From Methanomassiliicoccus sp. (GTDB taxonomy: Archaea; Thermoplasmatota; Thermoplasmata; Methanomassiliicoccales; Methanomassiliicoccaceae), in the NCBI GenBank assembly GCA_033485155.1, contig JAWQJJ010000005.1:124001-188000 (forward strand): DNA of 64,000 nt, read 5' to 3'. The notes below the pieces were generated by a model, which was not told the DNA's origin, made no database searches, and saw nothing but the letters and a program-made list of their open reading frames with translations. Positions 34,089 to 60,107 of this stretch are shown here, piece by piece (position 1 is the first letter of the stretch; every line of letters begins with the position of its first letter). The position numbers and the translations under genes are program-made.

Positions 34089-34142
34089 GAGATATCCTAG
34101 GACAATACCGACAATTAACCATATCGAAAGGTAAAGAAAGAG

Positions 34143-34217
34143 TAGCGGGGGGTCGATTTGAACGACCGGTCTCCGGGTTATGAGCCCGACGGGATGTCCT
34201 GGCTACCCCACCCCGCT
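34143..34217 (-). tRNA. Initiator tRNA-Met (CAT)
   Basis: A 75-nt cloverleaf is read on the minus strand. Acceptor AGCGGGG pairs with CCCCGCT, with the A1-U72 pair of archaeal initiators. The anticodon loop is CTCATAA with stem GGG/CCC pairs next to the loop, the initiator hallmark. The T arm contains GGTCGTTCAAATCGACC. CCA is not encoded. A TATA element (CTTTATATG on the minus strand, about 34244-34252) lies about 30 bases upstream. No intron is present. Confidence 0.95.
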
Positions 34218-35290: not shown

Positions 35291-35317
35291 ATATAGCGAT
35301 ATCGACGAGAGGGATTG

Positions 35318-35491
35318 CCCCGGGCGAGGTCGGACTACCGAGCAAGTCCGGTCGATCGCCCGAACCCGGGGACGGTAACCTAGATGGGCGATGCGATCGC
35401 CATACGGCGGTCCGCCGGGGAGCGGACGGAGAAGCTGGCTCCGGGGCCACCAAGGCCCGGCAAGGTAGCTACGCCCTTAGGCTGTAGCTAC
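35318..35491 (+). ncRNA. Candidate structured non-coding RNA (five hairpins) between rnhB and mptA
   Basis: Five stem-loops follow one another. CCCC+GGGCGA/TCGCCC+GGGG encloses CGGAC/GTCCG (35318-35371). Next come GGCGAT/ATCGCC (35387-35401), GTCCGC/GCGGAC (35410-35427), CCGGGGCC/GGCCCGG with one bulge (35441-35460), and GTAGCTAC/GTAGCTAC (35465-35491). An ATATATAG TATA box at 35289-35296 sits about 25 bases before the first stem. It overlaps the rnhB start codon, so it cannot serve rnhB. mptA has its own TATA at about 35497-35503. No known RNA family was recognised. It could also be a long mptA leader. Confidence 0.42.
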
Positions 35492-35545
35492 ATAATCTAT
35501 ATTGACCTACAGCGGTTAAACTCGGATGCATAATAAGGTGATAAT

Positions 35546-36424
35546 ATTACGACCGACGTTCAGAACCGCAAGCTGGCCAACGGCTACATGCTGACCCGGG
35601 TAGGGGTCACCGGAGTCAAGAAGCCGATACGCATCACCAGGGCCGGCAGGAACAACATCCTGTTCTGCACCATCGACGTCTTCGTCGACCTCCCGGCGAC
35701 CCAGAAGGGGTCTCATCTGTCCCGGAACCTCGAGGCCATCAACGAGACCGTCAACCGCAGCATGGTCGAGGCCATCCCGGGGATCGAAACGGTGGCGGCG
35801 GACATCTGCCGCTCATTGCGGGACAAGCATGAGTACTCGACCTACGCCGAGGTCCACCTGGTGGCCGACTACTTCGTTGAGCGGCCTGGACCGAGCGGAA
35901 AACGGAACCTCGAGGCCTTCAAGATCATGGCCAATGCCGTCAGCAGGAACGCGGATGGCTTGAAGAAGACGATCGGGGTCGAGGTCGTGGGGATGACCGC
36001 CTGCCCGTGCGCCATGGAGACCGTGCGGGAGCAGTACGGCAACAGCATCACCTTCGAGAACGACCTGCCGGTCATCAGCCACAACCAGCGCAACATTGCC
36101 ACCGTCCTGGTGGAGGTGCCCGAGGAGTGCGATGTGGAGGCCAACGACCTCATTGATCTGGTGGAGTCGTCCTTCTCCTCGGCGACCTATGAGGTGCTGA
36201 AACGGTCGGACGAGGCGGCGGTGGTGCTGCAGGCCCACCAGCAACCTAAGTTCGTCGAGGACGTGGTCAGGACCATGCTCGCAAAGCTGCTGGTACGGCT
36301 GGAGGGCCTACCCGACGAGGTTCAGATCACCGTCCGCAGCGAGAGCGAGGAGTCCATTCACAAGCACAACGCCTTCGCCGAGAGGGTTACCAGCCTCGGG
36401 ATGCTGCGCAGCGAACGCAATTAG
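35546..36424 (+). CDS. mptA: GTP cyclohydrolase MptA, apparently starting at ATT
   Basis: MptA (GTP cyclohydrolase IV/IB type) makes the cyclic phosphate precursor of methanopterin from GTP. Family motifs are LTRVGVTGVKKPIRI, FVDLPATQKGSHLSR, the metal Cys in MTACPCAMETV, SHNQRNIATVLVEVP and the end SIHKHNAFAER. The conserved N-terminal DVQ lies upstream of the first ATG (35588), in a frame that has no ATG, GTG or TTG before the stop at 35534. AAGGTGAT is followed after three bases by ATT at 35546, the same spacing as in gatB and the DUF2178 gene. I therefore place the start at ATT. Starting at 35588 would lose DVQ. Confidence 0.82.
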   Translation: MTTDVQNRKLANGYMLTRVGVTGVKKPIRITRAGRNNILFCTIDVFVDLPATQKGSHLSRNLEAINETVNRSMVEAIPGIETVAADICRSLRDKHEYSTYAEVHLVADYFVERPGPSGKRNLEAFKIMANAVSRNADGLKKTIGVEVVGMTACPCAMETVREQYGNSITFENDLPVISHNQRNIATVLVEVPEECDVEANDLIDLVESSFSSATYEVLKRSDEAAVVLQAHQQPKFVEDVVRTMLAKLLVRLEGLPDEVQITVRSESEESIHKHNAFAERVTSLGMLRSERN

Positions 36425-59308: not shown

Positions 59309-60085
59309 CTATTCCTCGGTCTCTCCGCGGCACGACCGGATGATCGCCACGCTGTGAGCCCCGATACGCTCATCAAAATAAACTGAGGCCTCTATGCCGA
59401 ACACCCGGCGAAGGTTGGCCGGGGTCAGGGCGTCCATGACGTCCCCGGCGGCGACGACCCGACCTTTCTGCATGAGAACGAGCTTGTCGCAGTACCTGGC
59501 GGCGAGGGCGAGGTCATGGGTTACAAAGATGACGATGAGCTTCTCCGACCGGGCCAGCCCGGTGATCAGATCCAGGATGTCGAGCTGGTGGTTGACATCG
59601 AGGTGCAGGGTCGGTTCGTCGAGAAGCATGATGCGGGGCTTCTGGGCCAAAGCCCTGGCGATGATCACCCGCTGCCGCTCTCCCCCGCTCAGCTGGTCCA
59701 TAGGTCGACCGGCGAGGTGCTCGGTGTTGGTCATTTCCATTGCTTCCTGGACGATCTCCAGGTCCTGCTTGGACTCTGACTCGAAACGCTTAAGGGCGGG
59801 AGTGCGGCCCATGAGGACAATGTCCAGGGCGGTGAATGGAAAGTTGACGTTGGCGCTCTGGGGCACCGTTCCCATGCGGGTGGCGATCTCCCGTCGGGTC
59901 ATGTCACGGTAATCGCGGTCGTCGATGAGTACCGTGCCTGCTTTGGGCGATAGAGAGCGGTTCAGGCACTTGAGAAGGGTGGTCTTCCCCGAGCCGTTGG
60001 GACCGAGGATACCGATGATCTCCCCCTCCTTGGCATCGAGGTCGATGGCGGTGAGCACGTCCTTGCTCCCATAGCTGAAGCCCAC
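59309..60085 (-). CDS. ABC importer ATPase (cobalamin/iron-siderophore type, BtuD/FecE-like)
   Basis: This is an ATPase of about 258 aa with Walker A GPNGSGKTT, signature LSGGERQRVIIARAL, Walker B IMLLDEPTLHLD and switch VTHDL. It belongs with the FecCD-type permease upstream and the binding protein further up. The first standard start is GTG 60085, yet the family's first strand (KLSVTGVGFSYG) begins seven codons earlier, where the frame offers only GTA (60106) after GGGGTGGT. The N terminus is therefore uncertain. In a methylotrophic methanogen cobalamin-type corrinoids are a likely cargo. Confidence 0.88.
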   Translation of the reverse strand: MGFSYGSKDVLTAIDLDAKEGEIIGILGPNGSGKTTLLKCLNRSLSPKAGTVLIDDRDYRDMTRREIATRMGTVPQSANVNFPFTALDIVLMGRTPALKRFESESKQDLEIVQEAMEMTNTEHLAGRPMDQLSGGERQRVIIARALAQKPRIMLLDEPTLHLDVNHQLDILDLITGLARSEKLIVIFVTHDLALAARYCDKLVLMQKGRVVAAGDVMDALTPANLRRVFGIEASVYFDERIGAHSVAIIRSCRGETEE

Positions 60086-60107
60086 ACCGGTGACGCTAAG
60101 CTTTACT

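Follow-up and report, generated by a model that had tools for sequence, protein, structure and literature searches.

The stretch of Methanomassiliicoccus DNA analysed here (64,000 nucleotides, hereafter the window) carries a gene, mptA, whose predicted product is the GTP cyclohydrolase MptA (table 1), a pterin enzyme acting early in its pathway, with the 2',3'-cyclic phosphate as the expected reaction product. The protein's score against TIGR00294 (MptA) is 318.8 bits, above the curated cut-off of 220, and it reaches 255 bits against PF02649, where residues 6-281 match positions 2-260 of the 260 in the profile, that is, the full-length domain. It is a full-length, over-cut-off member of the MptA/FolE2 GTP cyclohydrolases (PDB 2r5r, 3d2o and 8g6c), from which it differs by its start codon only, the enzyme being otherwise ordinary. 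The FolE2 relatives of solved structure align from query residues 3-5 onwards, and thus the residues encoded before ATG 35588, the earliest in-frame ATG, belong to the region of the family's fold. The conserved N-terminal DVQ is likewise encoded upstream of this ATG.

As the earlier note had pointed out, the mptA frame, which ends in a TAG at 36422-36424, contains neither ATG, GTG nor TTG between the TAA at 35534-35536 and ATG 35588. After the tandem TAA TAA the sequence runs GGTGAT (35537-35542), AAT, ATT, ACG ACC GAC GTT CAG, so that GGTGAT does stand three bases before the ATT, as had been described. An ATG at 35526 and a GTG at 35538 are present shortly upstream, both out of frame.

Table 1. 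Features of the mptA start region, and further genes with apparent or likely near-cognate starts
Feature	Position	Strand	Remarks
TATA-like stretch AATCTATATTGA	35494..35505	+	about 48 bases upstream of ATT
In-frame tandem stops TAA TAA	35531..35536	+	close the mptA frame on the upstream side
Shine-Dalgarno-like AGGTGAT	35536..35542	+	spacer to start codon of 3 bases
Putative mptA start codon ATT	35546..35548	+	from frame, homology and relatives
mptA, predicted GTP cyclohydrolase MptA	35546..36424	+	292 codons counted from ATT, plus TAG
Earliest in-frame ATG, internal	35588..35590	+	as a start, not conserved in relatives
tRNA-Met	34142-34217	-	GGG/CCC anticodon stem, A1-U72
ABC transporter ATPase	59309-60106	-	apparent GTA start at 60106-60104, preceded by GGTGGT-AAA
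Hydantoinase-like gene	G009:C13 near 33245 (L180)		likely ATC start
Nitrilase-like gene	G003:C5, L147-L149 region	-	likely ACG start; ATG in G009

The ATT has a putative ribosome binding site at normal spacing (GGTGAT plus 3 bases; 3 or 4 among relatives), and the position of the TATA-like stretch suggests that the leader is short, about 20 nt. A leaderless AUG would be expected without a Shine-Dalgarno sequence and with a promoter about 25-30 nt upstream, whereas in the window mptA is preceded by AGGTGAT, and its TATA-like stretch lies further out, near -48. Taken alone, GGTGAT-N3-ATH does not exceed chance in the window (three occurrences against 1.62 expected), and so the case for an AUU start rests on frame, homology and relatives. 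In four compared genomes N3 is the most frequent spacing between GGTGAT and ATG. The same arrangement had been claimed for gatB and a DUF2178 gene of the window; it indeed precedes ATG 42099 (gatB, PF02934) and ATG 4822 (149 aa), but Pfam, at E<=0.001, gave no support for the name DUF2178. The mean unpaired probability of the start region is 0.41, a value calculated without a shuffled control, and no Rfam family matched near mptA.

The start codons of relatives strengthen the case. We searched 147 genomes of the order, found mptA in 137 and read the start site in 101; the 36 unread sites are 35 of family f2 and that of G021, where the match is split in two. The sites read are of two kinds, separated by a single change on the MptA tree: 49 leader-type sites (families f1 and f3-f6, and two genera of f2) and 52 others. 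At the homologous codon the leader-type sites have ATC (18), ATT (17), ATA (7) or ATG (3); the other four comprise one ACA and three genomes of genus f3g22 without ATH, where the start is likely a TTG or TTA adjoining the expected place. Through most of this order of methanogens an AUH start appears to have been retained, AUU, AUC and AUA substituting for one another. Within the window's genus (seven genomes) ATT occurs once and ATC and ATA three times each, the six other genomes always having GGTGAT plus three bases. The check that the earlier note had proposed, to look in related genomes for ATG at this codon, returned none in these six, which excludes a sequencing error at the ATT. Its central claim, a start at ATT 35546, is borne out by the frame closed upstream and by ATT, ATC or ATA at 42 of the 49 leader-type sites, and we regard AUU as very probably the start codon of mptA.

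Whole or partial, GGTGAT mostly lies 3 or 4 bases before the leader-type codon. Since these two spacings place it in different reading frames with respect to the start, it does not represent conserved coding sequence. Among the 42 genomes with ATT, ATC or ATA, 20 (the window genome and 19 others) have no ATG, GTG or TTG in frame between the stop and DVQ, and thus no usable AUG, GUG or UUG for the conserved N-terminus. Such a codon is present in the remaining 22, in some of them inside the Shine-Dalgarno sequence itself. In genus f1g3 an ATG at -7, found in all six genomes, could be the one actually used, and the ATC of G058 is preceded by ATG AGA. The 52 other sites, all of f2, have ATG at codon -5, for which the automatic search mostly placed no Shine-Dalgarno sequence, and by a crude scoring the median 5' edge of their TATA-like stretch lies at -34, versus -41 in the ATT/ATC/ATA group. 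These features are as expected of leaderless messages, which the 52 sites would resemble.

Other readings of the start have to be weighed against these data. ATG 35588 is the first standard start in the window genome, and mptA might begin there, the conservation upstream being incidental. However, of the 42 genomes with ATT, ATC or ATA, 13 (among them the window genome) have ATG at codon +11 and 29 do not, the earliest downstream ATG falls at least 50 codons inside the gene in 28 of the 42, and the 14 codons upstream of ATG 35588 show synonymous changes and align to FolE2 of solved structure; we consider an internal start very improbable. An upstream start followed by a frameshift or by stop readthrough into mptA could draw on the nearby out-of-frame ATG and GTG. 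In this order UAG encodes pyrrolysine. The preceding stops, however, are TAA here and TAG or TGA elsewhere, none of the upstream out-of-frame ATGs is conserved, and in eight genomes of genus f3g6 TGA directly abuts the ATT, which leaves this reading scarcely credible. The choice of ATT, ATC or ATA without ATG does have the appearance of a conserved isoleucine codon, as if AUH were read by a tRNA for isoleucine or by a special initiator and the first residue were Ile. Against this, a search of the genome with a single exact pattern, no mismatches allowed, found one initiator-type anticodon stem, with anticodon CAT, and no unusual second initiator tRNA, and some members have ATG or a different codon at the site; such decoding seems most unlikely. 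Sequencing or assembly error can be practically dismissed, for while many relatives are draft metagenome assemblies, the same arrangement recurs in more than 40 separate assemblies, including G027 in one contig. The comparison with relatives led us to reject a start at the internal ATG, a frameshift or readthrough from upstream, and a sequencing error.

We therefore return to initiation at the AUU, where decoding by the ordinary initiator tRNA appears highly likely. The initiator Met-tRNA (anticodon CAU) would pair with AUH with a mismatch at the third base, Shine-Dalgarno pairing on the short leader would hold it in place, and the product would begin Met-Thr-Thr-Asp-Val-Gln. The anticodon stem and A1-U72 pair of the tRNA-Met in the window presumably mark it as an initiator. 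Of 44 related loci scanned, 27 have a tRNA-Met gene upstream of mptA; as a correlate of the AUH state this neighbourhood was rejected, being also present in ATG members. In the Pyrococcus abyssi aEF1A model message, GGUGAU is followed by four bases and AUG (PMC6237735), and by analogy the spacing at mptA appears to be that of strong archaeal sites. The same source (PMC6237735), citing Sulfolobus work, has aIF1 favouring discrimination against non-canonical starts, from which it follows that AUH should be weak.

Control genes were read at 30 loci each (best matches). The start is ATG in 30 of 30 for both glmS and aspS, and for glnA a standard start is found by codon +3 in 28 of 30, the remaining two being cut by a contig end or affected by a broken alignment. 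A first screen for similar cases by BLAST ends alone put forward 39 of 172 genes of G000, nearly all false because alignments run on beyond the true starts into neighbouring sequence that is itself conserved; it was replaced by a scan for synonymous changes, as a sign of protein coding ahead of the first standard start, with 678 gene tests in four genomes. Four genes were convincing: mptA, a hydantoinase-like gene, an ABC transporter ATPase and a nitrilase-like gene. The GTA of the ABC transporter gene is replaced by ATG in three relatives, and the list of standard open reading frames begins this gene at GTG 60085. Near-cognate starts thus appear to occur now and then in these genomes, their orthologs, where comparable, having ATG.

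Outside the order, we examined 80 further start sites of Thermoplasmatota (the anchor is wrong for G212 and G236), of which 40 were picked after the first 20 had shown AUH, so that the outgroup AUH frequency is biased upwards. Most of these starts are ATG or GTG. In family f27, codon -3 is ATC or ATT in 13 of 16 members and ATG in the other three; ATA or ATC is found in both members of f28, ATA in G244 (f31) and ATC in G249 (f25), while in f41 G412 has ATA at the very codon where its sister G402 has ATG. Two f23 members, G286 and G214 (L276, L296), have a likely ACG start and G170 of f20 (L316) a likely GTA start, all behind strong Shine-Dalgarno sequences; in three further f23 members (L293-L295) a clear mptA start was not found. 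One haloarchaeal plasmid copy of mptA has standard starts. From this distribution, the AUH trait would be either old and often lost or arising repeatedly.

To our knowledge, AUU, AUC and AUA starts are thought almost absent from prokaryotic genes, and we found no earlier report of the mptA AUH start in the literature searched on archaeal non-AUG starts, Methanomassiliicoccus and MptA. In enteric bacteria infC (IF3) and pcnB have an AUU start. These are, like mptA, cellular genes with a kept AUU behind a Shine-Dalgarno sequence; unlike them, mptA encodes an archaeal metabolic enzyme, its codon varies among AUU, AUC and AUA, and self-feedback is not evident. Archaea, as far as we know, are without IF3. 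The nearest precedent found is the Asgard archaeal tubulin gene atubA, for which a likely ATT start was proposed, as here for mptA, on the grounds of its N-terminal homology and of a suitably placed ribosome binding site (PMC13394414). That case is one gene in one genome, mentioned there for cloning, whereas the mptA AUH is order-wide and recurrent outside the order. With GUG and UUG the AUH start shares the replacement of AUG by a weaker codon; these are common, unlike AUU, to which, in a comparison of 36 genome triplets, one of 61,358 ancestral AUG starts had changed (PMC5622118). The same study describes AUG as favoured by selection in prokaryotes generally (PMC5622118), which makes the long persistence of AUH surprising.

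An order-wide AUH start in a metabolic gene, recurring in relatives, offers a natural system for studying archaeal start-codon stringency and lets one ask what weak start codons are for. It also has a practical side, since gene finders limited to ATG, GTG and TTG would shorten MptA, by 14 codons here and by much greater lengths in certain relatives, or overlook the gene.

The pathway served by MptA bears on the meaning of a weak start. MptA has a role in archaeosine. Across 61 genomes of the group, RFAP synthase, of the dedicated methanopterin branch, gave no match over the cut-off and weak matches in seven, and arcTGT gave matches in all 61, of which 55 are over the cut-off. Archaeosine or another pterin is thus a likelier product of the MptA pathway here than methanopterin, and MptA may carry only a small flux. 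The methanopterin branch was rejected as a cause of the AUH/AUG split, because RFAP synthase is below the cut-off in both groups, the ATG family included.

Why has AUH been kept? Conservation of this choice makes an error unlikely, and the codon may govern the amount of MptA. Our preferred reading, unproven and given somewhat less than an even chance, is selection for low MptA output: a weak start would be retained because it keeps output low in organisms which seem to be without the methanopterin branch and would need little of the enzyme. As the earlier note suggested, the rarity of the codon may restrict the synthesis of MptA.

Alternatively, AUH might be tolerated rather than selected, with little MptA needed and drift among ATT, ATC and ATA since the ancestor of the order, a possibility that is real if rather doubtful. 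The third-base counts are compatible with it: among 45 leader-type rows G occurs in 3 (1 to 3 rows), with a minimum of 9-12 third-base changes on the tree, and the shortage of G, as a test for selection against AUG, is not significant (P 0.20-0.65). The sporadic near-cognate starts of other genes, GTA and ACG where relatives have ATG, point in the same direction. However, ATG is one third-base step away and favoured by selection in prokaryotes (PMC5622118), AUH has been retained in five families as well as in part of a sixth, and the GTG, CTG and TTG expected at the site under drift are hardly found.

It is improbable, in our view, that AUH acts as a regulated switch like that of bacterial infC, with output following start-codon stringency through aIF1 or the state of the initiator tRNA. 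The recurrence of AUH, ACG and GTA starts of mptA in several Thermoplasmata lineages would agree with a switch, as would the discrimination by aIF1 already cited; yet MptA is not an initiation factor, so a direct feedback loop is not evident, and the outgroup sample was partly picked after AUH had appeared. More specifically, and with considerably greater reserve, selection could have made AUH a translational valve that responds to the state of initiation. MptA would feed archaeosine, a tRNA modification, with the initiator tRNA gene adjoining mptA; poorly modified initiator tRNA or low aIF1 would relax start-codon stringency, raise initiation at AUH and so restore MptA. If true, Thermoplasmata would have arrived repeatedly at an archaeal equivalent of the infC loop.

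Two minor observations concern the surrounding sequence. The intergenic region between the RNase HII gene and mptA (window positions 35301-35500) is GC-rich and contains inverted repeats (GTAGCTAC...GTAGCTAC) which match no Rfam family. In genus f3g6 (L019, L023, L024, L029, L030 and L039), a minimal start-stop, ATG-TGA, abuts the ATT in most members; the remaining members have ATA-TGA or ATT-TGA and, in one, ATG-AGA in frame.
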